NCBI GenBank assembly: GCA_032622095.1
Contig: CP136067.1
Location: forward strand, 93,796,707-93,860,706
Length of the DNA: 64,000 nt
Direction of reading: 5' to 3'
DNA from: Siphonodentalium dalli
Taxonomy: Eukaryota; Mollusca; Scaphopoda; Gadilida; Siphonodentaliidae
Part shown: positions 4,501-62,204 of the stretch, in pieces
How positions within the stretch are numbered: the first letter of the stretch is position 1
Layout: every line of letters starts with the position of its first letter
The notes under the pieces: model-generated
The model's input: the letters and a program-made list of their open reading frames with translations, nothing else
The model's database searches: none
Told to the model about the DNA's origin: nothing
Translations under genes and position numbers: made by a program

Positions 4501-7500
4501 TCTCTAAACCGAACACCCTTCGGACCGGCCCTTCTGTTCAGTTTATAGAGGTGTTCGGTTTACAGAAAATCGCAAAAACCATCGGAATATATTGTTGCCG
4601 TCAGTAAGAGTTATCGAGACCCGAACACCTCATTACTGATTACTTTAACTTTATTCAATAAACTACAAAATTAACATAAATTTCAATAGATAAATATGCT
4701 ATAATAAGAAATATATGTATAGATAAACCAGGAAACACAGAAACGATACATTTTACGGTGATTCGCGGTTTTTGAAAATGTTGACGGTAGATTTCAACTC
4801 TGAGCTATGGTTTTCCCGACGGCTCATTAATGGTGATAATTTTATTTAATAAAACTGTGATGGTAACAATAAACCACCGTCCTGTACTTTTAGTGAATTA
4901 GTGTTTAGTTTGGACAATTGTTGTAAAAAGAGTGCATTCCAGCACAATAGCTGATGTAAAAACAATGTGTCACTGCTCTAATTACCTGTGAAGTCACCAT
5001 TGTTCAATCGGTTTGTGATACAAGCAAACTCGTATCTATCTGAATCTGCATGTATCTGAAGGTGGTGCAGTGCAGTAACCAATTCTGGTGTAGGCGCATC
5101 TAATTAGACACCTGTTGTTTTAATCCGTTTCAAAGCTTTGCCGATACAAAAGACCGCTAATTAAATTGCTACACTTATTCAATAGTACGAAATACATTAT
5201 CTGTGTTCACGCGCGTTCGTCTGGTATCGCTTTCGGAATTTATTTAGAATAAGATAAAATATAAAATACGGCAGTATCTTTTTATTCTCAGGCATTATAT
5301 TAGTTTTAATTTGTAAATAAATTTGATTAATGTACCAGTAACACTTCGTCCGTTTTTAACTAAATGTTGTCACTGACGGTGATCGAGGTCAAACATAGGT
5401 CAACTCAAATGCAGAAACGTTTACATCATTACCTTTTAACTGATTGCGTTCGGTCTCTTCCATCGCTTTAAGCGTTCGGATTTTGGAGGTAAACATTAGT
5501 GTATTTGTTCACTTACGGACTAATAAAGCTGTCCGATATTCGGAGTACAGAGGTTTCGGATTACAGAGGTAATAATTAGTGACAATGCACTTGGGTAAAT
5601 TCGAGACCGAACAATTCATTTGGAATGGAGAGGGGTTCGGATTGTAGGGGATCCGGTTTGGAGAGGTTTCACTGTATCTAAACCTGACTAATTTAAGTCA
5701 CTAACCTTTACAGACCCTCAGCATGGTGACTGCTCATTCGACCAATCAAACTGGCTTGCCATGTGTAACTACACACAGAGAACCGATGACGACGCCAACT
5801 GGATGCAGGGACAAACCACTCCTGTTGGGGAAATCGGACCAAGGGTAGACCACTCTGCATTCAAATCAGGTAACCAGTTAATTTGGTTATTTATATCTAA
5901 ATTGTTTATGACAATGAGAAAAATTCAGTTCCGTAATCACTGGATTATATCCGGAGGGCTAAGATTATCGAAAAACTGCCAATAATCATACTGATGTAGA
6001 TGGTGTTTTCAGATATGTGGAAGTTGACTAAATATTTGCAGCCTACAAATTCATTCCCCACTGGACTTTTTTCATGAAGAAAAATAAAAATTCAGACCGA
6101 CAAAATTAAAGTGATTCACAGTACCCTTTTCTGTCAGATATCTGTGATTATATGCAATTGATTTCTATCAAGAACATGTTTTTTAATATAAGAAATGGAC
6201 ATGCAGGAGTTGATTTAGTTCTTTAAAAGATTTATCAGTGGTTTGCAGATTTTTAATAGCATTATTTATCAAGAACATGTACATTGATTAAATGGAATTT
6301 CCTTTCATAAAATTGAAAATTGCTTTGAGAAATGTTATATATGCTAAAACAATTAAATTGACCCATAGTGAATTGATTTGAAACAGGATTTTAGACTAAT
6401 AGAATTTATTGTTTATTTTACAGGAAAGTTCCTGTTTATTGATGATTCTAAGCTGAAGGTCGGAGACATAGCACAGATACAGACTCCAGACTTCCCATCA
6501 AGTTTCAACATCTGCTTCATGAGATTCTGGTATTATATGAATGGATCTCCATATATGGGACCTCTCAGGGTGAGTTAATTCAATCTGCTTCATGAAATTC
6601 TGGTTGTATATGTATGGATCTCCATATATGGGACCTCTCAGGGTGAGTTAATTCACGTCTGATTATTGCAGTTCTGGTATTATATGTATAGATCTCCATA
6701 TATGGAGCCTCTCACTGCAAGTGAATTAACTTAAAAAAATATAACTGGATATGTGTAAATTTGTACATCAATGAGGGATGGAGTTTATACGTAATAACTG
6801 TCAACCAGTGACGTGGCTAGAGGGTTTCCGTTGGGGGTGGGTCCACTTTGAAGTTTCCAACTGCACCCCTCCCCCTTGAACCAAACCAAAATCCTATGTT
6901 TGCAAAAAATTTACCCCCCCCTTCCCCTTTGGGTAGGAACTTTCCAACTAGTACCTCAAACTTTCCAATTATTGGAAATTTCTAATCTGACACAGGTCAA
7001 TTTTCACACGAGTTATGGCCTATTGTTAAAATCACCACAGGCGTATTTTGCCATACCCTGGCAATGCTCTTGTTAATAGACTTTAAGTAGGGAAATATTT
7101 ATTTTATCATAGGTATACATAGAGACGGCACAGGGAAGTCGGTATCTGGCTTGGTCTTTAACAGGAAGCCAGGGTTCAAAGTGGAATTATGCTAACCTCC
7201 CACTGGGTAGCTCTAGCAGATATCATGTGATAATATCCGCCCAGAAAGGAGATTCTTCGCTGTCAGACGTCGCCATCGATGATGTGACCTTCACCCCTGG
7301 ATGTAATATTGGAGGTGAGATACCTGTTTTATGTCTGATACACCTGTTTTGTTGTGTGTTACACCAACATGCTCATTTGAGCCCCAAAATTATGTATACA
7401 TAATTTGGTAAGAGGTGTCTCAAAATATACATATGTAGAAAATTTCCGAACTAATTTGTTGATATACCGCTGAAACCAAGCCTTGAAATAGGGTGTCTGT

Positions 7501-10500
7501 CATTTGCAGAATGAGGTCCCCAGAGGGTGAATTTAGTGATGCTACCCCGCATAGCGGGCTAGCATAATCAAATTCACCCTCTGGGAACCTCATTCTGCTG
7601 AGGTGTAAGCAGAATGAGGTCCCCAGAGGGTGAATTTGGTGATGCTAGCCCGCCATGCGGGGTAGCATCACTAAATTCACCCTCTGGGGACCTCATTCTG
7701 CAAATGACAGGCTCACTATTTCAAGGCTTGGCTGAAACTACGTGTTTTGTTTCTTACATTTTTTGATAAATTTGAGTGTCAATTTTCTTGATTATCATCC
7801 CCTCTTGACCCTGTTTTTGGTCCCTTCCTCAATTTTTTTTATTTGGATAATTTTGAAGTAAACTCTTTTTCTCATGCTTTAAGTACATTGCAATGACTTA
7901 TTAATCAGGTATATTTCAATCAAATTGGGCAATTTAAATCACCTTGTATTAAATAGAACTGACAATGATCATTTAAAAATATACACTGGAAGGGTCTATT
8001 ATTCACCTGGAGAAGTGTCTATGGAAAATGAACAGACGACTAACAGACCAAAGGATGATGCAAATGCAGAAGGATTCCTTGTACATTTGTGGGAAATATT
8101 CATGGTAAGTTCTGCAAACGGCATATGGTCGTTTGTTGAACTTATTATCTGAATCTTTCCTAAGGGAACTACTCATCAATGAGTATTTAGTATAGAATGG
8201 GTTAAGAATAAAATATATAATAACAAATTGCCCACCCACCCGCCCGCCCCAATTTTCTAAAAAAGTTTGATGAGAATCATAATTTATTATACTTCCATAT
8301 TTTAATATGGAAGTCATATTTTAATATGGAAGTATATTGTTATTCAATTTTTTATTTTTCACTATTATTATTCATTATTCTTAATATATTTTGAAACCCT
8401 TATATCTCAGAAAGTTTAAAAGATAAAGCATTGAAATTTGGTAGGTATATGCACCATGCCAAGTTGCGTGGTATCGAAGCATTTAGGTTTGTGTCCTAAC
8501 TTGCTTACCAGAGTTATGGCCCTTAAACAAAAAATTTGGAAAAAGTTTGTGCGCAGATCTTCTCCTATAAGGAGTCAAGCAGCTGAATTCGGTTCTCGTA
8601 ATCGTGTTAACAAACGAAAGGGCACGAATCGGGGAAATTTTCACCAAGGTCCGAAAACAATTTGTTGACCTGGGGAGGGGTGCAAAATTTGTCAAATTTT
8701 TTCTTGTCACCGATTCCAACCATTCTTACTGTCGGGTATCTATACGACGTACTGATGCTACTCGTGAAAGAATTTTGTAAATCGGTTGAGAAATGACCAA
8801 GTTATAACACATCGAAAAATGTACTAATAAAGTCCGGGAGCTGCCAATTTCAAAAATTGTATCAATGACCACTGGCGATATATTTCAACATCCATTCCTG
8901 TCTGGCGCAATGTGTTAATTGTTATGTTGGCTAACGGGTAATCACTCAAAACATTGTCGGCTGTCTGTCTTGTCAATCGGTCGTCATTCTGCGGTTGTAT
9001 CAAGATGTGGCTGGAAAATGACATATATTGAGTCCAGAAATGGGCAAAATTCGTTAGTTTTAAAATAGTAGTTTTCACTTTTTTTAAAACGCCCATTTTT
9101 TACCAAAAAAAATCTCGACTTTGACACTTGAGAATTAACAAAACTGGTGTCCGTCGTATAATGTTATAACACTTCCCCGCATGGACCACGTTTTCATAAA
9201 GCACAGTCCGTCTTATACGCGGACTTTCGCTTGCAGATCTCAATTGAATTGAAACTATTTTCTATCCGTTCACGTGCCCGTAAACCATTTTAATATATGA
9301 TATATTTAAATTGAATGAATGGGAGTCAGCGTATCCCGCCCGACGCCCCAACCTTGCCACCCCTAAGTCGCTAATTTTGGTATCATAATTTCCGAACGTA
9401 ACTATCTAAGGTTTGGTATTAAATCCCATCTGGTATATGACATACGTTTGTTGAATTTAGATCTGACCATTTAAAAACTGTCTCTTTATCATCTGTATGT
9501 GTCACAAGTGAAAATGTATGACTTTATTGCCCGTTTGTTATGATCGCGGATTCCATATTTCGCATTAATTGGACGAGACGCAATGTTAAGTGTTATAACT
9601 TAGGAAGAGTCCGACAACGACGTCGTACGTTCTTCCGTTAATCGGAAAATAAACACAAATATGTCTTAAAGCGCCGACTAATTCACCACCTGCGTGTATT
9701 CAAGAATATGAATCACACCAAAATTAAGCGAATTGTATATGGAATGTGTAGGTATAAGCTGCCATGTATATATCATTCCCAGAATGCTACCATAGCATGA
9801 CAATCTACTAGTTAAAATAAAACACCTTCAACTGTTGGGACCATCGCGATATATCCAAGCGAGCAAAGAGAGTTTAATGTCATCATACGATATTTCGCTG
9901 TTGCGAAATGGGTGATCGTTCTATGTAGCATAACTACATTGAACAACATATTTAATTATGTTTGTGTGTGAATAACGATTGTTAACTTGTGAAGACTTGC
10001 AATAACATATTAAATGGTAAAATACGCGCGTTCGTATCCGTATATTCACAAGAATATCCGTCTATTTTACAAGCTCGACATGCCATGTTTGTTTATGGTA
10101 TACTACATTCCAACACATCGGCTATTTATCATTTTGCTGGTGAGAAAGCGTATGTTCACTTTGGTGCTATTTATATGCACAGAAAAAGGCACCATTACTC
10201 GGGAAAGCAACCTACTGAAATGCATGTATATGTACGCGAATCATGTTGCGTTCTCACATAATGCAGTTATCCCAAATCCGCGCTCTTTAAAATAGAATTG
10301 GCTGCATGGCTGGCCTACTTCTGATGGCACAGTGTGTTACGCACCTGTCCGACTAAGTCACTTTGAACCCAAAATGTATACAAAATTCGCACAAGCTGTG
10401 GAAAAGTTCGCGATCTTTGACAGTCAGTACAATCGGAATAAACATTTGTAATGACATAACGTGTCTTGACAGCATTACCTGTTATGCTATATTGATATGT

Positions 10501-13500
10501 TTCTGAATTATATTTAATGCTTGATTCCTGACACACATATATAGTGACATTTCAGTGATCTTTCCTGAACGTTCCCGAGCATGATAGAACTTCAAATAAA
10601 ACATATTCGCCTTTGTCCCATTCTGGTGATTTGGGCTCGTGTTTAGCATGTTACTAATTTTATAATAAGACGTAATCAAGACATGTGTTATCAGTTGTGT
10701 GAGTGATTTCCATTCGCGCTTAATTATTTCATAAATAAATATATCCGCTGCACGTAGATATAACCGTCACTTATATTACTGGCCGTTGAAATCACTGACC
10801 CGACAAACTGATAAACCAAGACTTAACACTTGACAAATTACAGATCGGCATTGATTTAAAACTTCGCACTTAATTGTGGACAGACTATAACTATCCGTAT
10901 CTTTCACGAGAATATACCATCCCATTGCAGTTATAATTTTTAACATCTCAAGTCTTTAAGTTGGAATATAGAGATAGACACATGCGTGTATGTGGAACTC
11001 GTGCATGTTCTTTATTCACATTGCCAATTAAATATACACATGTGTGTATCTATACTAATAAAACCGAACTGTGTGTGTGTTCATTTGTTTGTCGGTCTGA
11101 CCTGCTATTGGTGACCAACCGGTTGGATCATGACAAACAAAAATTGGAACACACGGTGAATGGTCACGTGGAGTGTCATGGGATAGGTACATCTGACGTC
11201 ATGGGATTTAATTTGGAATTCATGAATAATTTAATAACATTTTTACATCTATATCTACAATGTGCCCTAAGTAATCGACTCCTTAAACATAGCAGAATTA
11301 TGGGTAACATTTCAGGATTTATTGGGAAATAGAGCCTGCTGACATTCATCCGAAAGCTCTCCTGAATCCCGAAAAGTTACCCATAATTCTGCTGTGTTTA
11401 AGGGGTAGATTACATATGGCATTACTGTATATTTGCGATTTTCTGTCTGTCTGCCTGTGTCTGTCTTCTATAAAAATTACAGGAGACCATCTAGATGATA
11501 CCAAAGGGGTCTACTAGGGGTAATTTTTTACGAGAAATATAATTTCAAAAGTAGCCTCATTCTTCATCTTTTATTTTTGCGAACTGATGTGTTTATGATG
11601 TTCATGTATCATAATATAAGGTCTGAAGTATACATGGTTGTAACTAAATAAATACTTCAATAGTTGTGGAACGGATTAATCGAGATAAACAAAATTATGA
11701 TCGAAAAGATGAGCAACTACTTATATTCCATGACTTTTAAAGATATAGATATAGTTAGAATTATTGTGGTTATGGTTACAGCTAGAACATGGTTGTGCTT
11801 ATAGAAACATTTAGTATTGGGACATGGTACGGGTTGCCGATAGGTATGGTTAAGATTAAGGTTTGGGTTATGGGAAAGGTAATGATTGAGAGGGGATTTG
11901 GATAGGAATATATATGATAATTATATGGAAGTATCAAACTTCCAATTGGAAGTTTAAAATTTCTAGTTTATATTGGTTTTATATATATTTTTTTTTCTAT
12001 TCAATTTAAACATTTTTCTTTTCATTGTCTATTGGGATTTACAAATGTTTGCTAACCATTTCATGATGGGAGCTGTGCTGGTGCAGCATTCAAAATGCCA
12101 GTGCATTCTCTTATATATGCGAGTCTCCCATGGGAGACTGGTATATATAAGAAAATGCATTGGCACAGGGTTTTTTGCTAAAGGGTTAATATGTTTTTGT
12201 TTCTATTACGATATAAACGTTTTTCTTTTCAGTTTATTAGGATTTACAAATGTTTGTTTTTTCTTTTTCCATTAGGATCGACCATGGCTCCAGCGACTGC
12301 TCCACCTTGTTACGGATTCTTCTGTAAGCCCTTAGGGCAGTGTATGCCTAACAGCTGGAAATGTGATGGAGTCGCGGATTGTCCAGATAATTCAGATGAG
12401 CCTCCAACTTGTCCTACACACTCCGGTCCATTTACTGCAGGTAAGATTCATTTGCATGCGACCTGTTTAATATACACCCTCCGACCTGTCCAATCGCTGT
12501 AGGTGAGAGTTGCATAAATGCTACTATGCATATCTTCCGTCACCGGTAAATTGACCCATGTTGTCAATTACCTGCATCTCATTAGATGAAGACATGTCTT
12601 TATTTATTTCCATCACTAAAGTGGAACGGAAAGAATACGCCTATCTACTGAAAAAGACACCAATTGATCATTTCAGCCCTTTTGGCCTAACTTGTACAAA
12701 TTTAATTTGTGTTTTAGCATTCTAGAGGGTGTCACAATCTTTTGGATTTTCAGGTGGTACACAGGCTTCACATACCCAATTATACCCAATACCAGTATTC
12801 GGGATCCATATACCCAATTAAACCGGTATTCAGGATCCATATGCCCAATTAAACCGGTATTCAGGATTCATATGCCCAATTAAACCAGTATTCGGGATCC
12901 ATATGCCCAATTAAACTGGTATTCAGGATCCAAATGCCCAATTCAAATGGTATTCAAGATTCAACAAAAATGCTGGTATATAGCTTTCATAGCACAAAAT
13001 TGCACGACATTTTGATAATTTTGCAGCAAAAATGGCATATTTTGATGTAATTCATACTAATACATCTTGATGTGTTGAAGATATGGAGATTACTTCAGCA
13101 AATGTGTGAAATTTATCATGTTAGTGTTAAATAACCATGACTAGTATTAATCTGCAGTAATGCTCTAAATAATCAACTCCTTAACCACAGCAGAATTATG
13201 GGTAATTTTTCAGGATTTAGTCTGAAATATGGCTTGTTGGCATTCATCAGAAAGCTGTCAGTGGCATATTTTGTTGTATTTCATTCTAATACATCTTGAT
13301 GCGTTGATGTTGTGGAGATTACTTAGCAAATGTGTGAAATTTATCTTGTTAGTGTGAAATAACCATGACTAGTATCTGGTTTGGGGTAATCGTAATCAGT
13401 AATCGTAATCAAAGTAATCGATTACCAAATTTAGAGTAATTGTCAGTAATCATGACATTTTGTGATTACAAGTAATCGTAATCGATTACTTTCAAATGTA

Positions 13501-16500
13501 CTTGTAATCATGATTACATTTTGATTACTTTTACTAAATATCAATATGGATGGCTATTGGATACGCATAGTCTCACACTGTAGCACAGATACAAACAACA
13601 TATCAGAAATTTAGTACAATTTTTTCATCTGTTATGTTAGTGGTACACTATGTACATTCTGGCAGTGGACACAGATAACACATAATTGCTGAAATGTTGA
13701 ATACAGCAAGTATGGCAATAAACTTATGATAAAGACAATGAAATGTTCTAATATGAAAAAAATAGGCGAGCCAACTTCAATTAGGATTAAATATTATTGG
13801 GAATGCTGCAGACAATGGCTGTAGAGTCACACTTGTACAATAGGGCTAATTAACTTAACAAAGCAGGTGTGATGTACATCCGTAGACCTAATTAGCTGGT
13901 TTGTCATTTACTGCACTCATGCAGTCAAGCCTCAATTAATCCTCATCGGGATATCAACTGAATGGATGATCATCAAATAAATGTTAGTGTTATTTTCATT
14001 GTTGGGTATTGAATCTAACAGAACATGTAAATAATTTATAATTGTTTCTAATGATATTTTCACAAATAGTATGCGTTAGTTTCAATGCATGTAAGAAAAG
14101 AAAATATATATTAAAAATATATTTACATAAATAAATACACATAAAACATAATATATTCCCAATAAGTTGGTGCACAACTTCATGGTGAAACCTCACCAAT
14201 ACATGTTAATGTAAAAAGTCTATGTGTTTATTGCTTGCTTCTTTCTATTGTTTCAGTCGTTTCTTGTTTCCATGTTATGTAGTGATGTTTTTATTCAATC
14301 AAATTTGATATTTTAATTTGATTTATTTTATTATTTATTCCTATGCAATAAAAATGGTTTGAAACTAATAAGATGTAATCAAAAAGTAATCGATTACATT
14401 TACTAAAGTAATTGTAATCATAATCGATTAAATTGGTAAAAACTAAATCAGTAATTGTAATCATGTCAATCAAAAGTAATTGTAATCGTAATCTATTACA
14501 TTGGCATGTAATCACCCCAACCCTGACTAGTATTAATCTACAGTAATGCTCTAAATAATCAGCTCCTTAACCACAGCAGAATTATGGGTAATTTTTCAGG
14601 ATTTAGTCAGAAATATGGCTTGTTGCAATTCATCAGAAAGCTCTCATTGAGAGCTTTCCGATGAATGGCAACAAGGCATATTTCCGATTAATTCCTGAAA
14701 AGTTACCCATAATTCTGCTGTGGTTAAGGAGTCGATTATTTAGGGCATACTGTACCTATACTATATTGTCAAAACTTTTGCTAAATGTTCATATATAGGT
14801 AATACATGTATTAATTAGGATTGGAATAAAATGTGTTTACGTCAAGTTCAACAGGGGAAATTCAACCTGATCCTAGGTTTCCCATAGCAGTTGAGGCAAG
14901 CAGAATGAGGTCCCCAGAGGGTAAATTTGTTGATGCTAGCCCGATAATTACAGGAAGCCTCAAGCATATAACAACTGCTGCCGTCATTACAACCCCAGCA
15001 TCTCCATGTAGTAAGACCCAGTTCTGAAACTCACATTATTATAATTACTGATTACAGGAAGCCCCAAGCATGTAACAACTCCTGCCATCAAGACAACTCC
15101 AGCGTCTCCGTGCAGTAAAAAACAGTTCTATTGTGACAAGAAATGTATAGCGGCGGGATTTAAATGTGACGGCGTTAAAGATTGTAAAGACGGATCGGAT
15201 GAAGCTAACTGTAGTAAGTTGATAATAATGGATATTTGTAATGTCATTAACCTCTTCACTGCTATGACGTCCGTAACTATTATGGGCTTAAAAGTGCATG
15301 TCATGTGCTATATGATCCGTAGTACCTACAGACCTACTTCAATGCACTAGTGTGTGACCATAATTCATCATTGGAACTCAGAAATTAGTGCAACTGGACA
15401 AGTTTATCTCCAAGTTTCTAACAATGTATCATGTTCAAGGATTGTGTATGATAATAGCCTTTGCACGAAGTCAGTTGTATGGTTATCGCGACATTTCCAT
15501 TATATTTTTCCATTGCAAAATGTCAAGAACGTCAACGACCCAGAACACGACATTAAGGCATCATTCAGCTGTGATGAGGTTAAATTTCTATTCTGAACTT
15601 TCGACAAGAATTTCAATGTTTCAAAGTCATTCATATTCATAATGACCCCGTTTGGTGCCAAAGCGCCGTGCTCGGGTCATATATAGGTAACAGGCAGGTG
15701 TACATACTTGTGACGTCACACATACTTTACAGTATACTGTAAAGGTGACACACATTGTATAACTTTCACTATATACAGTATTATATGATAGGCCTGTATT
15801 GTCAAAGGCCGTTGTCTAAACCATAGGCTATATTAATAGGTATAATTATCGCTGTTTACTCAAATCCAAAACAATCAACCAGATTAATGAAGCATTTGCA
15901 TTGTTACTATGCATGCGTTAGGCATAAATAGGCATATGGTTTCATAACTAATTACACGAACTTTCGCATGGTCATTCCCTTTAACCCGGAGCTGTGCTGG
16001 TGCAGCGATATAGATTCTGTGCCATAATACTACCAATGCATTCTCTTATATATGCGAATCTCCCATAGGGAGGTACATGTATATAGGGAGGTCAAGGTAA
16101 ATATTGTTAGGCCAATGTATTCTCTTATATATTCTCCATTTGCAACACTTGCATATATAAGAAAAAGCATTGACACAGGTTATTCAAAAAATTTCAGGAA
16201 GGTCCAGTCATGGAAGGGATAAGCATTTCCATTGTTATCATTGCATGATTTAGGCCTAAATAGGTATATAGTTTCATATAGTTATTCCTCCACATTGATG
16301 TAAATTTTCAACATCTGATACATTAATGCCCTAAATGATCGATGCCTTAACCACAGCAGAATTATGGGTAACTTTTCAGGATTTAGTCGGAAATATGGCT
16401 TACTGCCATTCATCAGAAAACTGAATGAATTATACTAGAGAACCAACCAATATGAAGTTTTGTTTTGAAATTCAAATATTTTCCCAGCTTCAGTAAAATT

Positions 16501-19500: not shown

Positions 19501-22500
19501 ATCCATTGGGTAGGTCACATGTCTAATTGAAACATCTGCATATTTTTTGTTTCAGTTTGCCCACCTAACTACTGCCTTGATGGAGGAAGCTGTGTTGTCA
19601 CTGTAGGCTCGGCTCCTATGTGTCAGTGAGTACCCATCATTATTATGCCCACCCCACCCCCAATAGTATGGGGATATATAGGAATCGACTTGTCCGTCCA
19701 TCCATGGACGCAACTTAGTCCGAATTTGTATTGCTACATTTTTGAGTCAAAAATTTTGAAACTTGGCACAGACATTTATTAACATGGGAAACTGCACCTC
19801 CGATTATGAGGTTCGTCCAACTTTTTTTTTTAAACGGGACGCATTGTGTTATTGGCCCGTCCATTCATCTGTCCTTCCATTCGCTTTTTTACATTTCCAA
19901 ATGATAACTTTAGTATGTCTGAACTGAATGAAATAAAATGTTGTATGTTGGTTTACTAGCACAAAATACAGGTCAAGTTCAAATTCCGGTTCCGCCTGCC
20001 AATAATGGTTTCAATCAGATAAAAAAAGTTACTGCAGCATGCGTGAATTCTAAGTAAAAAAAGGGCCTTAACTCCTTAAAAAAAACCTCTGATCAAATCC
20101 ATATTCAGACTTGATCTGTATTTTGGGATGAGAAACACATATACAAAATTTGGACAATCTGGATGTCGATACTATGTGTACCATACACATAACAAAATAC
20201 TTATTTTTAAAGATGGTCTATCACTTCCTGGAGCCACTTTATACAACATCAAAATTTCTAGGAAACTTGTTTTAGCACTGCTGTTCCCAAACATACACAT
20301 GAGAATTAAAGATCTGGTGTTAAAAATTTGCACATATAAGTGCCTTCAAAGAAAAATTTCAATCAAAATTTAGTTATGTTCTAAAAATAGCAACACAAAC
20401 TGTCCCGTTTCATAGAAAATAATTCATACAACAATCAATTCATGACAGAAGCTCCAGTTGACTGGTTTCCCTGTCTCATAATTATTATTTTACCCCCCCC
20501 CCCATATATATTATTTGATTGAATACTTTTTCCCCTTGAACAGGTGTAACCATAACGACACAGGTGCTCGATGTCAGTCGCCTTCAGCTCAACGACAAAA
20601 TCAGAACTCACCTTCCGGTACCAGCGGTAAGTTGTTCAGAATAGATTAATATTTATCCAGCGACCCCCACCTGGCTAAAAAAGTCAAATATAACACCTGA
20701 ATGCGATTAACCCTTCAATGACTGGAGCTTCCCGAAATTTTGCGAAAACCCTGTGCCAATGCATTCTCTTATATATACGAGTCTCCCACAGGGAGACTGG
20801 CATATATTTAAATGAGTTTGAGGATCTTTAAATGCGGCACTAGCGCAGCTCCCGTCATGAAAGGGTTATTATCAAGATAGTGTCACATAAAAAGATTTAA
20901 GTCACAGTTATGACACTTTTTCTAATTTTCATTTTAGTTTTAGCTCATCAGCATAGTTATAACTTGAACACATGTCTGCTTATGTGGTTGATGTTTGACA
21001 TATGGCCTCTTCCTAATATCGTGATCTAGTATTAGTATAACCTCACTCACAGCCCGTTTTCCATATAACAAGTTTTGTTCATTTGTTTATTCTGAAATTA
21101 TGGCCCTTAACCCTTTACCCAACAAACCGGCCAAAACCGGCCAAATAAAGCTTCAACAGCCTAAACTATCTTCTGTCTGTCTCAATAGAACCATACAAAT
21201 ATGGGTATCATTGGAACCGGCTCCTTGACCACATTGTGATAGTTACAGTTATGCCCTGTGCCAATGCATTCTCTTATATATGCGAGTCGACCATAGGTCG
21301 CCTCGCATATATAAGAGAATGCATTGGCCTAAAAAAAATCTTTTTTTACCATTTTTTCTTACATTCTTTAACAATTTTATAATTTTTAATGTGTTAAGCC
21401 AATGCATTCTCTTATATATGCGAGGCGACCTATGGTCGACTCGCATATATAAGAGAATGCATTGGCACAGGGCCCTTCTGTTGGGTAAAGGGTTAAAGTG
21501 TAAGATACGCCCATTGTTTTATCTTCGTTATATTAGATTGGATGCATACAGTAATGCTCTAAATAAACGACTCCTTAACCACAGCAGAATTATGGGTAAT
21601 TTTTCAGGATTTAGTCAGAAATATGGCTTGTAGCCATTCATCGGAAAGCTCTGGTTAAGAAGTCAATTATTTAGGGCATTACTGTTCGATCTTTGGTATA
21701 TTCATGAATCCCGATTGGATGAAGGATATATGCACATGCTACAGCTTTTGTCCAGTCATCGCAAGCCAGATTAACCCTTTCACGTCGGATTATGCGCTAG
21801 TGCAGCATTAAAGATCCTGTGCCAGTGCATTCTCTTATATATATATAGGGAGGTCAAGGTAAATATTGTTAGCCCAATGTATTCTCTTATATATAAGAGA
21901 ATGCATTGGCACAGGGTTTTTCCCAAAATTTTAGGAAGCTCCAGTCATGGAAGGGTTAAGTCATTTATAATAAGCCAATTCCATCTTGCGAGAGTCACTG
22001 TGCTATGCAATTGTTCTGATGGCCAATGATATGACCTTGTTTTCAGGTTGGAAGATAGCGTTACCCGTGGTGTTCTCCCTTGTTGGTGTGGCATTGATTG
22101 TAGTTGTTCTCATTTTCAGGTTGGAAGATAGCAGTAGCCGTGGTCTTCTCCCTTGTTGGTGTGGCATTGATTGTAGTTGTTCTCATTTTCAGGTTGGAAG
22201 ATAGCGGTAGCCGTGGTCTTCTCCCTTGTCGGTGTGGCATTGATTGTAGTTGGTGTAATATTCTTCATCAGAAAGAGGCAATCCCAGTGAGTATTAAAGA
22301 CATATTATGGACTTGTTCGGATGCGTGAAATCGATCAGATAGTACTCAGGCCCTATGCCAACCTAAGGGATATAGCATTCTATTAACATTGCCAAAGTTT
22401 TCAAAGAAATCGACCATACCACTCCATAGAAAACATTGTCTGAACTATTTTCGATTGTAAATTTTTTACATGTCGATTCGGGATGCAACTATCGTCCATA

Positions 22501-25500
22501 AACTAACACAAATGATTTCGCCATCGAGAGTCATTACATTTAATTAATATATATTAAGTATGACAATGTGTGTTGTCATTTTGGATTAATATTTATAAAA
22601 AAGAACTACTTTGAGCAAGATTATTCTCAATTTCTAAGTACGATACCAGAGTGTTTCACATCACTAATAACACTCCCATAATATATCACTGATTGACACA
22701 ATAAAACTTCATCCTCAATATGTAAAATAAAAATATTTACAGTAATGCCCTAAATAATCGACTCCTTAACCACAGCAGAATTATGGGTAATCTTTCAGGA
22801 TTTAGTTGGAAATAAGCCATATTTCTGACTAAATCCTGAAATATTACCCATAATTCTGCTGTGGTTAAGGAGTCGATTACTTAGGGCATTACTGTATTTC
22901 CCTTAATATCCTAGTGAAAAGATCATAGGTCAGGATAAAAATGTTTTTACTTGAAAAATAATCGTCAAGTTTTATATCTGTGAAGTGAGTGGCTAGTCAT
23001 TGAAACTTCTGGTCAAACTTTGATATTGCATGGCAGCCATCTTTAGACTACTGGAGTTTGAAATCTCCTTAAAAATAGACTAATTTCCAGCGGCTAGATG
23101 TCGGTAGCCTTGTATTTTTTACATATGGTTATATTTGAGATATTTTTGCCATGTAGGGCTGCACGATATTAAGTGTGATCGGCACCGAAGCGTTTTAATT
23201 TAATGTAAGGTCAATATAGCTGCCGGTAAAGTGAACAGTTTATCCTGTTGTGCAAATTCTAGTATAAAAGTGCATCTATTTCAGATATAGTTCAAACATA
23301 AAATCTGACCTGTACAGCAACAGTACCCTATACGGAAAGACATAAAAAACGCTAATCCCATTGCCAATCTAACAACATCAGTAGAACAAGTTTACCCTTA
23401 CATGACAATATCGCCTTGCATCAGGTTACGGCCAACCACAGAGACACACAAAAACATGCCTGTTTATTGTATGGTTATATTTTGCGAATACCCATGTCTA
23501 TATTTTAAACAGCTACCATTTTACGAATACACACGTGTCTACCAGCATCTGGCCACAGTTGTTTATTTTCTGTTGGATGTTTTACTGTGGTCATTTCCAA
23601 GATGAAAAGTTCCAAATAATACAATTTGACAACTTGGTTTAGTGTTATCCACATGATAACTTATATCTTGCACTGATCCATAGCGAGACAACTCTGATTT
23701 CATTTATTTCATTTTTAGGCAATCACTATTTAGTCGAGAGACTTATCAGGGTATGGACAATCCAATGTATGGCTCGGACCTACCAGTAAGTATCCCTGAG
23801 TCCTGAGGTATATGATCTAGGCTATATAAGGGTAAACAATTAAAATTTTATCTGATTGAGCTATTTTTATTCATATATTACATCAAATTGTACATTCTAT
23901 TTTTGTCTGTATGAAACGGTTATCATCAATATTCTATATGTGATGGGGATGACTTAAGAAAACCACTATGCTTACTGCCAAATCATGTTATATTAAACAT
24001 TGTTTCATTCCGTCATCATACCGTGAGTTTTGTACAATACTTTGGTTACATGAAATAAGTTTAAACTAAGTATCCATACTCAATGTAGATTAAAGAGCAT
24101 TTAATTTTATTATTTTTATTTGTCTCCACACCATACTAATTGTACTGTAATCAATGTAATGGAATTACTAAGTCTAATGTCTTGCCCCATTTTTGTCATG
24201 TTTCTTAATTCTAAGAAAGTTATCTTTAGTTATTTGAAAGTACATTCCAACATAAGTAGGTGCAGCACCAGCGTGTGATGCCTGTCGATTTATCCTCTGG
24301 CAGTACTACCTGTGCATTAAAATACACTTTTCTTTTATTGACATATAAGAAATTCTCCCAATAGTATAATCAGGAGAGCCAATAATGTTTCCAACTACAT
24401 TACCGTATGATATAATTTGAATTCTTATTTCTTTAATGTTGTGTGGTACGTGTCCCCCATAGTGTTTATATTCCTGTGATTTAAAACTTGCTGACAAGTT
24501 TTACTGGTACGATTCCCGTCTATCACTTTTCATACTTATGTCAACATTCAAAATTGTCCATGTGGCGCTTCGAAATGTGTACCCAGGCTTACATTTTGCC
24601 TCTGTGTGGGTTAACGGAGACGGGTTGACCCCCGCATCTCGTGGTGAATCTACCCCCTTGCCCCAAGAGCTTTTGTTTCGACACTATTTTACAACCATGT
24701 ATGGCTTTGACCTACCACTAAGTATTCATACACCATGTTGATTGTATGAGCTTCATTTCAATTTGTGATTGAATAATTTCAGGTTGAGATGAACAAGATG
24801 GAGGCACCAACATTCGGAGAGCCATATAATGATGTGAGTAGTCTCCCTTGGTTCACTCTAATTCTTGCTTGAATATTCTGATAACGACTGAACTTTTATA
24901 TAGTGACTTTGTTTTTGTCAAGCAGTAGATATGAATCTGATGTATTTTACTCTTCCATGATATGAGCTGTGCTTGTGCAGCATTAAAGATCCTGTGCCAG
25001 TGCATTCTCCTGTATATGCGAGTCTCCCACAGGGAGCCTTGCATACATAAGAGAATGTACTGGCTTACAAGGTCAAGGTAAATATTGTTAGGCCAATGTA
25101 TTCTCTTATAAATATATGCGATACTTGCATATATAGGAGAATACATTGGCACAGGGTTTTCACAAAATGTCAGGAAGCTCTAGTCATGGAAGGGTTAACA
25201 GATATTATCATCTGAATTCTACCTCTATATACAAAGAATCAAACCACTATAAATGATTCTCCTAAACATTTCAATACTTATGTTATACCGCTGGACCTAA
25301 ATTCACTATAAAGTCAGACAACACAGTAAAAGGTAGACCAAGTCTTCTTGGGTAGCAGTACACGATTTCACGGGTTGTAGGGGGTCTGAAAAATAGAAAT
25401 ATAAGTATCTGGGGGCATAACAGCAAGTGTAGCCTGTGTTAACTGTGTCATTACTGGTTTGAAGGTTTATTTATTTTACAAAACTGGGAAAGTTCTCAAA

Positions 25501-31577: not shown

Positions 31578-32390
31578 TTATCATGTTTTCTATTGTGATT
31601 CACCATTGCCTGGAGTCACACTTGCATAATTACACTTACGTATGACCAGTCTCTTTGAAAACCCTATGAAAATGTTACCTTATTTAAGTCCACATATCTC
31701 GGATTTCATTTCTGTTTTGATGGGATTCCTTCCATATCATTGGTTTTGGCTCAGAACATGCACGATTTCATTGGTCTGTGATGTAACAGATCATTTCAAG
31801 GGCGGAATCCAATCTCCATAAAAAGCCAATACCTATTCTAAACACTTGATCAATATTATGCAGTGCCAATGAAAACACCTTACTTTAAAAGGGTATTGTA
31901 CACTAAATCTGGCCAATTATTGGACCATCTCCTAATATGAATCATACGTGACACGTAGTGCAACAACCACACACTGGTTGTCATGGATTATGCAATCTTG
32001 CAGCCAACATGCTGTAAATGATGTCATGAACTGTGCCATGACGTCTTCTCTGGTTTTAATTTAGCTAACAAAATTGGTCTAAATGAAACTGATATGCCTA
32101 AATCACATGGGAATTCTTCGCAAGTTGTGAAGTTGACAATTTTATCTCGTTTGTCCACTTCCAATTCCGCAATTTTACAATCTCCAGGCAGTTGCTAACC
32201 GGAAGTCAAGTGTCAATTCACAAAAAAAACATACACACCACCGGGATTTGGCTCATCGCTATAGAAATAAAAGGCCGTCCGGCCACAGTGTCCCTCAAAA
32301 AAGTGGCTTCATTGGGGGCATCAGCTTTTCTGGAAAAAATAACAAGGACCCTAAATCCGATACTAAATTTCAGAACAAAATGGGTGGATC
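31578..32390. other. Intergenic, one MITE fragment
   Basis: 31889-31945 matches one end of the foldback element at 41602-41948 (TGTACACTAAATCTGGCC, GGACCATCTCC). Nothing else is recognised. Confidence 0.5.
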
Positions 32391-34117: not shown

Positions 34118-34294
34118 AATGAAATGGCTCCAAAAAAATTCCTGATTGGCTACAAAATTGGCACCCAGCTTTTTGATACCCTGCGGGCATATAATACAAG
34201 CCAGTCAAAGACTGTGGGGTCGCTCACCAGACTGATAGGACTGGGACTCTGGAGACCACAACAGTCATAACTTTTCATAATCAATTTAAAAGAA

Positions 34295-34612
34295 GTAGAT
34301 CTAAACAGGATAGGTGGCTAGAGAGGCTTCATGTATGTAGATTGGTGAATATCTACCTCAAAATTACCAACTGTTCACTACTGATCTGAGCTAAATAGAC
34401 TTGGTGGTTCTTTCAAAGAACACTTTTCAAGTTTGCCAATTATGTTCACTAGAGGTAGATCTAAACAAGATAGGTGGCTAGAGAGGCTTCATGTATATAG
34501 ATCAGTGAATATCTACCTCGAAATTACCAACTGTTTACTACTGATCTGAACTAAATAGACATGGTGGTTCTTTCAAAGAACACTTTTCAAGTTTGCCAAT
34601 TATGTTATAGTG
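34295..34612 (+). repeat. Two-copy tandem repeat, 160-bp unit
   Basis: GTAGATCTAAACAGGATAGG starts at 34295 and again at 34455. Both units contain AGAGAGGCTTCATGTAT and GTGGTTCTTTCAAAGAACAC, with few differences. Confidence 0.85.
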
Positions 34613-34899
34613 AAGTGGTGGATGTGTTAAATGTCCTTATGAAAGATTTGAACAATACATATGATAGATTGTTGTTGTAATTGGGAATTAATGACCTCTA
34701 ACAGATCTCCAGGGAATGTTTATAAAAATGTCAGATTTCACTTGGCATGTGTAGGCATACCCCGCATACAGTTAGAGCCAAAGTAAATGCTTCTTGTTAA
34801 TGATTCTCTGTCAAGAATTTTAGTAAATATTATTTTTGAAACCAGGGTGGCAGAAGCAGTGAACTTGAGTAAAAGGCCAATAATTTTTTTTTTTTAAAT

Positions 34900-36935
34900 A
34901 TTTTTTGGAGTTATGTCCCTGGCCCCGCCCACATTTGACCCAGTCACCCAAGGATCCTTCATACCAAATATAAACCCATTTGGCCTGATGGTATTTGAAA
35001 AGAGGTTTAAAAGAATTTCTATGGAGGGAAAGAGTAATGGCCCTGGTTTCGCAACTATTTGACCCAGTGACCTCATTTGAACAAATCTGAATATGAGTCA
35101 CCTAGGGAACATCCACAACAAATATGAACCTTTTCGGTCTTATGGTTCCAGAGGAGAAGAAGTTTAAAGAATTGTTGACGGATGGACAGATGGATGGATG
35201 GACGTACGAGGAGTGATGACTATAGCTCCACCGGAGACTTTGTCAAAGGTTAAATGAAAAAAAATAGCAGATTTTTTTGGCATTTTAAATTTGAATTTTT
35301 GTCATTCTTTTTTTTTTAAATTGAGCAAAGATTTCAATTTAACAACATTTAAAAAAAAAAGTTATGTCCCTGGTATGATTTCATCTGGAAAAGTGGTGGT
35401 TAAGAAAATAATATGAAACCGCCAAGCCTGAATTTAGTGTGTTTGATATTTGCAGAATAAGGTCCCCAAAATGTGAATTTAATGACACTATTCGGAAAAG
35501 CGGGCCAGCATCGCCGAATTCATCCTCAGTCTGATTAGGCCTCAACGGCCAATAGAAACCTAGGATTGAAGTTCTACAGTTGAAGTTGGTGATGCACACC
35601 CATTGAACACCTCAATTATGTATTTTATCTTCTGCAAATTAGGGGGACATTGAAACTGAACAGGTGGGAAAAAGTCAAAAAGTAACTAAAAAAAAAATTG
35701 ATACTTATGATACTTCCCAGAAGATGAGGCCTAAGCATAATTAGGTCCCTGGAGGGTGTATTTGGTGATGCTAGCCTGCTGTACGGGGTAGCAACACTAA
35801 ATTCACCCTCTGGGGACCTCATTCTGCAAATGTCAGACACACTATGTCCAGGCTTGAGGAAATGAATAGACTTTTCCTATTTATTCTTGCAGAATAGGTG
35901 TTTAACTAATGCCATGAAACTGTTTCAACAGGTGGATTAACTTAATATTGCACAGAGAACTGGAATAATCATCAATCACAGCTTGACAGATGGTGTAAAC
36001 ATGTATGCAAGCAAGCAGTCTCTCCCAGTAGTATCAAGTGTCCATAGTGATAAATTGGCTCCTTCAATAATACAGCCTTCAGCGATGTGATGTTCTCTCT
36101 AAAATTCATAGGGCATGACAAAGAGGTGTGAATTATAAAGGGCCATAACTCTGTTAAAATATATGGGATCAAACCCATATTTGAACTTGATCTGTATATA
36201 GGTGTCAAAAATGCATATACCAAATTTGGTGTTGATCAGATGAAAAATGTTTGATTCATCCTGTCTTGGATGAATTCTATATAAAAACAAGAGAAGAAAG
36301 GGTTAAATAAATGATACCAAAATCCATACAGATGAAGATGGTGCTAAGAAAAATCTAGATAAGAAATATGAGGCTGTGATGCGTCCAAAAAAAAAATTAA
36401 AGGTCAAAATGCAAAAATGTTATTTTTTGTTTTTAGAGTTATGTCCCTGGCTCTGCCCCTATTTGACCCAGTGACCCCATTTGAAAAAATCTGAACCCCA
36501 GTCACCCAAGGTACCAAATATAAGCTAAATCGGCCCAATATTTCTTGAGAAGAATTCATTCTAAGAATTACTATGAGTTATGGCCCTGGTTTCTCAACTA
36601 ATTGACCAGGTGACCTCATTTGAACAAATCTGAACACCAGTCACCCTCCATACCAAATATTAGCTAAATCGGCCCAATGGTTATGGACATGAAGTCGTTG
36701 TAAGAATTACTATGGAGGAATAGAGTTATGGCCCTGGCTTCGCAACTATTTGACCCAGTAACCTCACTTGAACAAATCTGAATGAGAGTCACCTAGGGAA
36801 CATCCACACCAAATATGAACCAATTCGGTCTTACGCTTCCAGAGGAGAAGATGTTCAAAGAATTGTTGACGGATGGACGGACGAGGAGTGATGACTATAG
36901 CTCCACCGGAGACTTCGTCTCAGGCGAGCTAAATA
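34900..36935. repeat. Dispersed repeats with CTATAGCTCCACCGGAG tails and a family D element
   Basis: GAGTTATGTCCCTGGC, TTTGACCCAGTGACC and AACAAATCTGAAT blocks, then GACGGACGG and GACTATAGCTCCACCGGAG, occur at 34905-35255, 36430-36935 and 39395-39930. A family D copy (35423-35856) lies between the first two. Another dispersed block (CATATTTGAACTTGATCTG) is at 36140-36260. Confidence 0.7.
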
Positions 36936-37315
36936 GCTTGCAGTCAATCGGTCGGAAACAAAACACACATTGATATCCGGTCACGACATAGCCAATTGGG
37001 TCCTAATTGAAAGCGTATAATAGATTCGCGGCTTATGTCAGATCTACTTATTATATCGCTGGTGTGAATGGGTTTCGAATTTCTACTTGATTATAACACT
37101 GAGTACGGCTATTGACTCCAATTTGACAAACATTAGCCAAACAAAGGGCTTCCTGAAGTCTACATCGTTAGGAAACTGTATTGATAGTAGGTATTAGATA
37201 AACTATCATAAACAATTAAATATGTCCTTCGTAACTCAGCTTTCACAAACTGATTTCGGCAACAATGCATCAGACATATATTTTATATAATGTAATCTGG
37301 GGGTTAAAAAATTAA

Positions 37316-37910
37316 GTAGTTTACTATTTTATATTCATTTTAGTCTAAATAATTAATTTTGAGAAAACAAATTACATCTCATTGAACAAATCTGCTAATT
37401 CCACCCCTCAACCCATGGGGACATCCCTGCAAGAATAGGACATCTGTGATTTATTGGATGCTTGTCTATATTTGCCTAACAATATTTCCTTAACCTTGAA
37501 AGCCAGTGCATTCTCTTAGGTGAGGCTACCTATGGACACTCACATATATAAGACAATGCACTGGCATGATACTCGGTACCTTGTTATAAAATAATAAATA
37601 TTGGACAAATATTAAAACTAGGAGCTCATTTCTCTTGATCAATGGTCTATTATTTTATATTCATTTTATTTTAGTATATGTAATTGGTTTTGGAAAAAAA
37701 TTTACATCTCAATGAACAAATCTGAGAAATTTGCCACCTCCCCAAACATATTTGGGGACATCCCTGCGAGAATAGGACATGTGTGATTTATTTGGCCTAA
37801 CAATATTTCCTTGATCTTGAACCCCAGTGTATTCTCTTATATATAGGAGAATACACTGGTGCAGGGTCTTTATTGCTGTACCAGCATAGCTCTGGTAATG
37901 AAATGGTTAA
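37316..37910 (+). repeat. Local tandem duplication containing family C MITE parts
   Basis: 37316-37570 and 37643-37875 share TTTATATTCATTTTA, ACATCTCATTGAACAAATC, GGGGACATCCCTGC and CCTAACAATATTTCCTT, each ending in an ATTCTCTTATATA hairpin. Divergence is about 20% by eye. Confidence 0.7.
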
Positions 37911-38539
37911 TACTAATACTATTATACGAGAGGCCGATCACGATCGGCAGATGTTTAACCCATCCCTTGGCGATAGTAAATTGTTAAGATCAGAATCATA
38001 ATCTTTTAATGTTGAATTATAGAGTATACTGTTATGATCTAAAGTAGTATATGACAAATGTACATAATAACCAGTAATAACACAAATTATTGGAATGTAT
38101 GAGTCAATATAGAAGGGTTAATATAACATCTAAACTCTAGAGCCTGTCACCACTATCATAGTGTGAGCAGTTCTATTCATGTTGTTGCAAATTGCCATGT
38201 GAGATATCAAAATAATATAATTATTTATTTAACGGAAAAGGTTAAAAGACATGGAATGGGTAAAAGGGGTTAAATCACCTATCTCTGCCCCGTTTGATCC
38301 AATGTAGTCCCATCATCCAAGGACTTAGAGAGCTCCATTGGTCTAGTTAAATAAATTCACCTGGCTAAGTTGTGGTTAAAAAGATAGCTAAATCAATTTA
38401 TCCAATAATTCACTGTGTCTCTTATACAGACCTAACATATGAGGGCTATAAATAACTCTCAAAGCAATAAACTATATTGTCTTTTATCTTGCTCACAGAG
38501 AAGCAGGTATTCATTAATTGTAAGTTACTTGGGTTATAA

Positions 38540-39060
38540 TCGGGATAATTCTTAGTTTAAAAAGGGCCATATCTCTGGTATAACAAATTGGATCTAACCC
38601 ATATTCAAACTCGTTCTGTATTTTGAGTTGAGAAACTCACATACCAAATTTGGTTCCTATCAGATGAAAAATGGTTGATTTATCGAAGTACATGTACATG
38701 TATGTGTGAATCATATGTCAAAGGACCATAATACCATTAAAAAAAATCCGATCAAACCCATATTCGAAATCAATCTGTATGTTGGTCTGAGAAACTCATA
38801 CACCAAATTTGGTTCCAATCAGATAAAAAATGTTTGAGTTATGGCAGAATGCGTGAATTCTAAGTCGAAAAAGGGCCATAACTCTGTCAAAAAAAGTCGG
38901 ATCAAACCCATATTCGAACTCGATCTGTATTTTGAGTTATTGCATTACACGTAAAGTGTCTACGGACGGACAGACAGACAGACAGACGGACAGACGCACG
39001 ACGAGTGGTCAATCCGGACAACGACACTATGTTTACCATACATGGTATGGGTAAACATAA
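38540..39060. repeat. Tandem dispersed repeat with GACGGACAGACAG tail
   Basis: Three tandem units contain GGGCCATAACTCT, CCCATATTCGAA and ACCAAATTTGGTTCC, followed by a simple tail of ACGGACAGACAG type at about 38968-39000. A similar tail ends the repeat at 46850-47220. Confidence 0.7.
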
Positions 39061-39945
39061 AAATGTGTAAACTGTTAAACAGTTAGAGTTGTATTTGAGA
39101 TTGCTGTAAACACATAGGATTAAATTTCATTCACACACCTCTTTCTCTCTTAGCCTGAATAATGTGGATATTGAGATAAAAGTTAATTACTTTATAATGA
39201 CTGGACAAGCAGCTGTGAGCACTGAGAATTAAGGCTGGTCAGTTCCTGGCATGTCATAACTAAAGTGTAAGGCTTTTAATGGTGTGAACCTTGCAGGGAT
39301 CTGGTGTGGGGTGGCAGGGACATGCAGTGGTGGTGGTGGTGGTGGGGGAGGGGGGTTGGGCAAGGGTTTAAAACAAGGATTTGAATTAAAAAAAAATTAA
39401 GAGTTATGTCCCTGGCTCTGCCCCTATTTGACCAAGTGACCCCATTTGAACAAATCTGAACCCCAGTCACACAAGGACTCTCCATACCAAATGTAAGCTA
39501 AATCGTTCAAATGGTTAAAAAGAAGAAGTCATTCTAAGAATTACTATGGAGGAATAGAGTTATGGCCCTGGTTTCTCAACTAATCAACCTGGTGACCTCA
39601 TTTAACAATTCTGAATGTGAGTCAACTAGGGAACATCCACACCAAATATGAATCCATACGGCCTTATAGTTCAGTAAAAGAAGTCGTTCTAAGAATTACT
39701 ATGGAGGAATAGAGTTATGGCCCTGCTTTCACAATTATTTCACCCAGTGACCTCATTTGAACAAATCTGAATGATTCACCTAGGGAACAACCACACCAAA
39801 TATGAACACGTTACATCTTACAGTTCGGGACGAGAAGATGATTCTTGACAGACGGACGGACAGACTGACAGACGGACGACGAGTGATGACTATAGCTCCA
39901 CCGGAGACTTCGTCTCAGGTGAGCTAAAAACAGGAACATAACTGT

Positions 39946-42240: not shown

Positions 42241-42282
42241 GATTTATAAGTTTGTTCACACACAACACAAGCAGCACTAATA

Positions 42283-53145
<10,863 letters not shown>

Positions 53146-53146
53146 G

Positions 53147-53239: not shown

Positions 53240-53273
<34 letters not shown>

Positions 53274-60641: not shown

Positions 60642-60811
60642 GTAACTGTCTAAGCAATTGACTGTGGTCATACAGTTGGTAGCTATAAACATGCCAAGCG
60701 CCGGGGAAATCATAGCTCCCCAGATAACACCAATCTTTGAGTACAATCGAGAAGGAAAGCCACTCACCACCAACCACTTCACTTCAGCCACATTGATCCA
60801 ATTATCAACAG
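60642..60811 (+). CDS. Alternative first coding exon A of an unidentified gene
   Basis: Acceptor CTTATAG, an in-frame TAA early in the exon, then ATG at 60691. Forty codons plus one base start MPSAGEIIAPQITPIFEYN and end TLIQLST. The exon ends AACAG|GCAAGT, the consensus form of a GC donor. The 62049 exon is a paralogue with the same start peptide, phase and donor. I do not recognise the protein; it is polar, with no signal peptide or TM segment. Downstream exons are not seen in the window. Confidence 0.65.
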
Positions 60812-60956: not shown

Positions 60957-61090
60957 AGACCTCAAAATATGGTGCTGGACATTTGCAGAATGAGGTCCCA
61001 AAGGGTGAATTTGGTGATACGTAACCCCTAAATGCGTAAACCCTAAATGCATAATCACTAAATTCACCCTCTTGTGACCTCATTCTGTTT
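60957..61090. mobile_element. Family D MITE fragment between alternative exons
   Basis: ACAGACCTCAAAATATGG end, then CAGAATGAGGTCCC and its inverse CTCATTCTG; shortened palindrome. Confidence 0.7.
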
Positions 61091-61313
61091 AGTTCTCATC
61101 TTCTCTGGAAAGTATCTTTATTATCATTTAACAAGTTTTTTTTAGTTTCTTCAGAAACTTCTTTCAAAATTTGTTTTGATGAAGATTTATGTGAACCTTT
61201 TGTTTAACTCTTGTGAAATGTTTCAACTTTCCAGTCCTTCATATACCTGATCTCAGTCACTTTCTGATCAGAAAGATGAACAACCTCTTCATGAACATTG
61301 TCATTCAGTTTAA

Positions 61314-61638
61314 CCCTTCCATGATGGAGCTTCCTGAAATTTTGTGAAAACCCTGTGCCAATGCATTCTCTTATACATGGATAGGATAGGATAGGATATT
61401 TTATTTGCAATACACATATCTATTACATAATAGTGGCGAAAATTATGGAAAATTATGTCGTATATTGTGGGGGATGGCATAGTCTGGCAAGACTGTCTTC
61501 CTGCCATCCCCAGTATGGTGAATATAGAAACTAATAACAATAGTAAGATGTTCAATAGAGAGCCTGATATATATATAAGAGAATGCACTGGCACATGATC
61601 TTTAATGCTGCAGCAGCGTAGCTCACATCACGAAAGGG
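61314..61638. mobile_element. Family C MITE with TTAA ends and an insertion
   Basis: TTAA at 61310-61313 and 61639-61642, with ends CCCTTCCATGATGGAGC and CACGAAAGGG. Between 61379 and about 61560 it contains foreign sequence that starts with a GGATAGGATAGGATA run. A family B copy follows at 61692-61802. Confidence 0.75.
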
Positions 61639-62048
61639 TTAAAGGCAAATATCTATTAGACTTTCTGGGAACTAAAATATTAGTAGAACCACAGTAATGC
61701 CCTAAATAATTGACTTTTTAACCACAGCAGAATTATGGCCAACCTGAAAAGTTACTCATAATTCTGCTGTGGTTAAGGAGACGATTATTTAGGACGTTAC
61801 TGTAAATAGAGGTCAGAAGCTCTTTCCAGTGTGAAAAATTTCTTGATAATTTTTTTATCCCAACACGATTTCTCTCGTGAGTTGGACTGAGATATATATC
61901 TTGCAGAAAAAATATTTTAAAAAACTGAGGTGCGTTTTTCACTGAGATCATTAAACTGAATGCAAATAAATGAGGAATTTGTTCATTTTCAACTATAGTT
62001 ACTTGCACCAATATAAATGGTGGTTAATTACAGTGATTCTCTTTGCAG

Positions 62049-62204
62049 GATAGATTTCATCTGATTTGTTAGGGAACCGGTCATTTGACAATATGCCATC
62101 TGCCGGGGGGATACATGTCCCCACCATCACGGCACTACGGCGACCCTCAAATGGGCTCTCCACGTCACATATAGATTCTACTGTTCTCATAGAGTTAGCA
62201 ACAG
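62049..62204 (+). CDS. Alternative first coding exon B of the same gene
   Basis: Acceptor TTCTCTTTGCAG, in-frame TAG just after it, ATG at 62093. Thirty-seven codons plus one base (phase 1) start MPSAGGIHVPTITALRR and end VLIELAT. It too ends AACAG|GCAAGT, and intron bases after the donor resemble those after exon A, so exon and flank were duplicated about 1.4 kb apart. The open frame, shared ATG context and identical phase suggest both are used, with the rest of the gene beyond 64 kb. Confidence 0.65.

Follow-up and report, generated by a model that had tools for sequence, protein, structure and literature searches.

Tandem copies of exon edges and their splice sites in a scaphopod genome

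The window analyzed here is a stretch of 64,000 nucleotides from the scaphopod Siphonodentalium dalli (positions 93,796,707-93,860,706 of contig CP136067.1, in a genome of 2.23 Gb in 9 contigs). It contains four short tandem arrays, named after the MAM, LDLa, transmembrane (TM) and NACA exon 5 exons that they touch, each of which crosses one predicted splice site. Arrays of the same kind were found at 20 of 280 predicted exon edges (7.1%) outside the window. The explanation toward which we lean, with some reserve, is that short tandem duplication strikes exons and their edges, and that the copies bearing a splice site persist as the outermost site still yields a normal exon.

Splice-site arrays in the window

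Two genes harbor the four arrays. Gene A, on the + strand, encodes MAM and LDLa domains and has about 14 exons over 1160-30092 in a hand-built model. Gene B, on the - strand, is NACA; five coding exons were found (53145-44236), and the joined protein contains the NAC and UBA domains. A third gene starts at about 60.7 kb of the window. The features of the arrays are as follows.

6424..6569, + strand: MAM-domain exon with a copied 3' end (hand gene model; acceptor TTTTACAG, donor CAGG/GTGAGT, predicted functional GT at 6570)
6508..6727, + strand: MAM donor array, period 73, about 3 copies (Tandem Repeats Finder, TRF, period 73 x 2.8 with a TRF span of 6508-6714; self-BLAST offsets 73 and 147)
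14947..15025, + strand: LDLa exon, upstream decoy copy of the acceptor and exon start (self-BLAST, 83.5% identity over 79 bp to 15051-15129, offset 104)
15051..15129, + strand: LDLa exon, predicted functional copy, exon start 15058 (self-BLAST and reading-frame check)
22040..22252, + strand: TM exon acceptor array, period 73, about 3 copies (TRF period 73 x 2.9, 95% matches)
44149..44274, - strand: NACA exon 5 donor array, period 45, about 3 copies reaching into the intron (TRF period 45 x 2.8; exon 44359-44236)

The preliminary description of this DNA had counted six tandemly copied exon edges in three genes. Its copy numbers are reproduced for the four arrays above (about three for MAM, TM and NACA exon 5 by TRF, two for LDLa by self-BLAST), whereas the other two cases, described in the last section, turned out to be duplications of another kind, and the number of genes concerned is reduced to two. 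The LDLa pair was missed by TRF and was detected by self-BLAST and by a local-repeat scan. The oldest-looking copies have lost the splice motif: GTGAGT is retained in copy 2 of the MAM array, whereas copy 3 has GCAAGT at that place, and copy 3 of the NACA exon 5 array has GTACTG where GTGAGT would stand. The ungapped local-repeat scan (offset 20-260) found 25 clusters in the window, 4 of them on exon edges; the same scan on shuffled sequence of the window's length gave zero arrays.

The consequences of choosing one site or another were followed by joining the exons at each candidate site. The TM join is short of one G of the upstream exon, and its frames shift accordingly. Reading through donor 1 leads to a stop after two codons both in the MAM exon (VS-stop) and in NACA exon 5 (...NAIMVS-stop), and the first LDLa acceptor leads into a stop. 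The TM exon starts at 22047, 22120 or 22193, depending on the acceptor. With the first acceptor the membrane segment is read through and a stop follows, and with the second the reading continues in another frame; only with the last one (22193), which is the productive one by reading frame, is the frame held to the exon end. The expected protein is thus obtained only from the first donor or the last acceptor in the four window arrays. From these reading frames we infer that the outermost site would be the one in actual use.

Exon edges elsewhere in the genome

In order to sample other edges, we located exons by Pfam families elsewhere in the genome. Five families were used, namely TCP1, MAM, dynein, adaptin and kinesin, with MAM contributing only 13 edges before the kinesin set was added. 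The sample comprised 29 of 60 non-window search loci and 120 short stretches, giving 149 exon loci in all (numbered with the prefix L, L001 being the window). The remaining 31 search loci had been set aside ahead of the count, being near-identical paralogs, intronless copies, multi-domain exons or window overlaps. Predicted splice sites scoring below 2.5 were dropped, and three sites were set by hand (one window donor, the L158 donor and the L023 acceptor). The frequency stated above comes from five conserved families and may not hold for every gene.

Of the edge arrays, 12 are at donors (140 sampled) and 8 at acceptors (likewise 140), with a unit spacing of 30-155 bp. Six were found in TCP1 and MAM loci (L008, L022, L023, L026, L029 and L052), five in sixty dynein and adaptin exons (L063, L086, L105, L106 and L114), five in 40 more TCP1 and dynein exons (L124, L127, L129, L158 and L160), and the others in the kinesin set described below. 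L127, L063 and L023 are the weakest-looking ones. L064 passed a gapped alignment test, failed the scan and was excluded from the count. The arrays sit inside existing introns beside the predicted splice sites of conserved exons.

Long near-identical repeats are prone to mis-sizing, and an assembly or sequencing artefact would therefore be a conceivable source of such arrays. We regard it as highly improbable. Most arrays carry substitutions between their copies (identity 0.80-1.00 at 15 edges), and they occur in unrelated loci on several chromosomes.

Two further repeats were seen in these searches. At L052, an intron of a MAM gene contains a minisatellite (2175-3438) with a 43-bp unit in about 29 copies, shortly beyond the edge array of period 49. 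On contig C6 (220294135-220294508), three SNF2-domain matches to one exon start fall within 374 bp, which is likely a further exon-edge array.

Excess over the intron background

The number of arrays expected at edges was derived from an event count, in which the intron arrays multiplied by their unit length give the expected edges, and the count was masked by leaving out repeat families. Unique introns predict 3.15 arrays for the sampled edges, and the number seen corresponds to an excess of 6.3 times (bootstrap 3.4-13.8). Limiting the count to units of 110 bp or less raises the excess to 10.4 times. Adding the window brings the arrays to 24 of 317 edges (5.6 times the expectation). Before the kinesin set was added, 16 arrays had been seen at 241 edges, with 2.61 expected in the masked and 7.91 in the unmasked count.

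The terms of a replication were fixed beforehand: fresh kinesin and SNF2 exons, arrays at 5% of edges or more, and a ratio clearly above 2. The sample amounted to 20 of the 60 planned exons, all of them from kinesins. Arrays were present at 4 of 39 edges against 1.31 expected. The frequency exceeds the 5% mark, and the ratio of 3.0 lies above its mark in value, on small numbers. All four arrays are at donors (L171 with 11 copies, L174 with 3, L177 with 2 and L179 with 4).

An alternative is that duplication is uniform along genes and that the edge cases simply survive and stay visible for longer through their conserved exon copy. We consider this possible, although we doubt it. Arrays are indeed common in introns, as there are 52 unmasked arrays in 158 kb of intron background and 21 of the 25 window clusters lie off exons, a point that the preliminary description had left unweighed. 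A pair with a conserved exon copy would diverge down to half as fast and be visible up to twice as long. Such slower decay, worth a factor of up to 2, could explain the unmasked ratio given below, but not the masked one: only 0.07% of the masked bootstrap samples had a ratio at or below 2. For units up to 110 bp, even the unmasked excess is 4.2 times.

A test free of this decay effect considers the intronic copies alone. Edges with at least two spare copies that are recognizable from the intron alone number 8 of 280 in a strict hand count, compared with 0.51 expected; the background consists of 6 comparable intron arrays, which makes the size of the ratio uncertain. The script had returned 13 such edges, of which L008, L105, L106, L124 and L177 (1.2-1.6 intronic copies) were removed as two-copy arrays. 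By the same strict standard, the features of a minisatellite at an exon-intron boundary (a unit of about 10-100 bp in at least three copies) are established for 8 of the 20 outside arrays only (L026, L086, L114, L158, L160, L171, L174 and L179), the other 12 not being among them. Multi-copy arrays of this kind are visible without any exon copy, which argues against longer visibility as the whole explanation.

Several points weigh against the explanation that we favor. If repeat families are kept in the background, the excess drops to 2.1 times (1.2-3.5), which slower decay alone could give. The replication introns are also rich in arrays (5 unmasked in 8.7 kb, again small numbers). A coverage test, which asks whether a second copy of the 42-50 bp surrounding a point occurs no more than 240 bp away, shows a weaker effect. 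With the window included, 16 of 205 edges and 760 of 11807 control points were positive (ratio 1.2, or 1.6 masked), and variants over all offsets gave 1.1-1.8 times. Outside the window, with a 150-bp neighborhood, the unmasked ratio was 1.5; masking raised it to 1.8, with an interval (0.88-5.09) that spans 1. Like the unmasked event count, these coverage values could all arise from slower divergence alone. For offsets under 110 bp, the coverage ratio was 4.5-5.3, with a cut-off picked after the data had been seen; with a 110-bp neighborhood, 15 of 205 edges (7.3%) were positive versus 2.1-3.2% of intron points, depending on their distance. We prefer the event count because in the coverage test all points within a long intron array add to the background, while an edge fits the first or last copy only. 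The switch to the event count was, however, made after the weak coverage result. Furthermore, the splice sites in every count were predicted from sequence, and acceptor units show no lean toward the exon (mean intron share 0.57, n=10). Finally, constructs with duplicated 5' splice sites often prefer the intron-proximal site, which would render such duplications harmful rather than silent.

The preliminary description had proposed that a process of this kind acts throughout the genome and that splice sites be scanned against the intron background. Run here as a sample, the scan agrees with the proposal in the frequency of arrays at outside edges, in the event count and in the replication, while the unmasked and coverage ratios are more modest.

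Diverged repeats, whose period is about 140-175 bp, account for much of the tandem-array background (window 32377-39806 and many loci). In addition, two palindromic repeat families (gcagaatgaggtccccagagg... and ...cttatatatgcgag...) form tandem pairs in many introns, with recurring offsets close to 96, 103 and 138-148 bp, for example at window 7506-7701 and 21260-21466 and at L091, L117, L163 and L178. These pairs probably represent inherited mobile-element structure rather than fresh duplication.

Anatomy of the arrays

Unit geometry was measured in 20 arrays (4 from the window and 16 from outside it), with hand and script values differing at indels (NACA, L023 and L106). A tandem copy that contains the junction was seen in all 20 and in the 4 replication donors, at predicted splice sites. 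In donor units, the exon contributes most of the sequence (the mean intron share is 0.26, with n=10 and P=0.003). A donor needs some 6-8 intron bases and an acceptor its pyrimidine tract, and part of the difference between donor and acceptor units may thus be functional. Exon-internal arrays are almost absent: one was found in 30.4 kb (150 exons), and it is the L029 edge array itself. This scarcity fits the prediction of purifying selection.

Two other candidate regularities were dropped. An exon-side lean across all 20 arrays did not hold (P=0.09) and was kept for donors only, and edge arrays do not have more copies than intron arrays (7/20 versus 6/19, P=1).

Selection for splice-site redundancy, in which spare copies are retained since they recruit splicing factors or buffer mutations, would account for the excess at edges, for the exon-rich donor units and for the intact GT or AG in 16 of 20 adjacent spare copies (7 of 10 donors and 9 of 10 acceptors). 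Nevertheless, we find it improbable. The unit lengths have no frame preference, with residues modulo 3 of 7/6/7 in the 20 arrays including those of the window and 6/4/10 in the 20 outside it; multiples of three are not preferred, hence the copies are not retained as coding variants. The site is lost in older copies (copy 3 of both MAM and NACA), and use of the window decoys leads to stops or frameshifts.

The arrays also differ from two known forms of alternative exon structure. Mutually exclusive exons would have an acceptor and a donor in each copy, whereas the units measured here stop within the exon, short of its other edge. NAGNAG-like tandem splice sites are spaced by a few nucleotides, whereas the outside units are spaced by tens of base pairs or more.

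Proposed explanation and known relatives

According to the explanation that we favor, short tandem duplication would be active in this genome, with units of about 30-155 bp and occasional minisatellite-like growth to about 12 copies. It would affect exons and their edges no less often than unique introns, and the rate there is probably severalfold higher. A unit placed across a donor or an acceptor would leave an intact outermost site, and use of the first donor or last acceptor would then give a normal mRNA, with the spare copies becoming intron. Edge duplications would in this way evade the selection that purges exon-internal ones, and they would persist, expand and slowly decay. The excess that remains after decay would be due to a higher duplication rate in exons or at edges.

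A stronger version of the last step, which we put forward only tentatively, is that exon ends are mutational hot spots. An exon- or junction-tied process would copy edges into introns and place decoys at several per cent of junctions. One example that suggests itself is template switching where replication is stalled by transcription or splicing complexes, and introns would then lengthen at their edges by taking up exon sequence. Mutational bias and selection for redundancy are indistinguishable on the present data.

Tandem genomic duplication and internal gene duplication have reportedly been treated by Rogers (1989), Gao and Lynch (2009) and Hellsten (2011), the study of Gao and Lynch being described as a broad survey. 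The assertion in the preliminary description that no named mechanism fits was too strong, as single events of this type are on record in the excerpts considered here: CBS 844ins68, boundary tandem repeats and tandem genomic duplication.

The closest relative is c.844_845ins68, a polymorphism of human cystathionine beta-synthase (CBS). In the excerpted account, it has the same splice-junction duplication geometry as the arrays described here, and the distal site is strongly favored, giving a normal mRNA (PMC2630376). It is one polymorphism in one gene, in contrast to the present arrays, which affect about 7% of the sampled edges, have some 3-12 copies in part of the cases and are known from DNA alone.

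Tandem genomic duplication is, as the review excerpt has it, the sole route of intron gain demonstrated in vivo (PMC3443670), and in a potato case, again as excerpted, a duplication crossing an intron-exon boundary made a new intron (PMC4974935). The likeness lies in a short in-gene duplication that, in these excerpts, is tolerated since the spliceosome excises the extra sequence (PMC3443670, PMC4974935). That process creates a new intron, whereas here an existing intron lengthens from its edge. Birth of introns or of new exon structure by this route (the AGGT model), or of mutually exclusive exons, is therefore a very unlikely reading of our arrays, even though the raw event is identical: the 20 measured units each span one junction beside an existing intron that holds the copies, and no new intron is needed.

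Human genes in segmental duplications carry minisatellite arrays on exon-intron boundaries that are either kept or spliced out (PMC2812944). As far as the excerpt goes, the paralogs concerned are recent and often polymorphic, and their units measure about 30 bp, in contrast to the arrays found here, which occur in conserved genes across the genome and have units of 30-155 bp. In exon 4 of an earthworm metallothionein, the excerpt reports gene copies that are missing from the transcript, together with intronic minisatellites (PMC12783039). This concerns one gene, and a splice-edge geometry is not apparent in the excerpt.

Among the listed matches from the open-licence literature, there was no genome-wide survey of exon-edge tandem duplications. 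It looks as if the frequency, and not the single type of event, is what is new.

If several per cent of edges indeed carry spare splice sites, splice-site choice is under a heavy natural test in this genome, gene predictors may be misled, and introns gain a source of growth that is little counted. The arrays would also provide naturally duplicated donors and acceptors, in which the rules of splice-site choice could be probed with ordinary RNA-seq.

Other features of the window

The two remaining cases of the preliminary description are located as follows.

24697..24725, + strand: dispersed and decayed copy of the NPMY exon end with its donor (compared with 23765-23793, at exon 23719-23785)
60691..60811, + strand: first exon of the third gene, copy 1, outside the tandem-edge phenomenon (sequence reading)
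62093..62204, + strand: similar first exon of the third gene, copy 2 (sequence reading)

The NPMY copy, about 36 bp long, has a score of 24, whereas 500 shuffles reached at most 18.5. It is real, yet it is non-tandem, lying 932 bp from its source. The two first exons encode similar peptides, for which no Pfam family was matched. Their nucleotide likeness is limited to 24 bp around the donor, with a score that was reached in 1 of 500 shuffles, and they represent an old whole-exon duplication. Both end in CAG/GCAAGT (window 60811 and 62204), which would mean that a GC-type donor is retained in each copy.

Gene A appears to form the 3' end of a giant gene, or gene cluster, with a MAM array. At least 150 MAM-domain matches were scored genome-wide, and 90 of them form one same-strand run of about 380 kb (93.42-93.80 Mb) that ends at window 1160-7314. 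In the same gene, 70 bp of intron sequence upstream of the LDLa exon at 12276 occur twice (11983-12051 and 12189-12256, offset 206), and a palindromic element separates the two copies.

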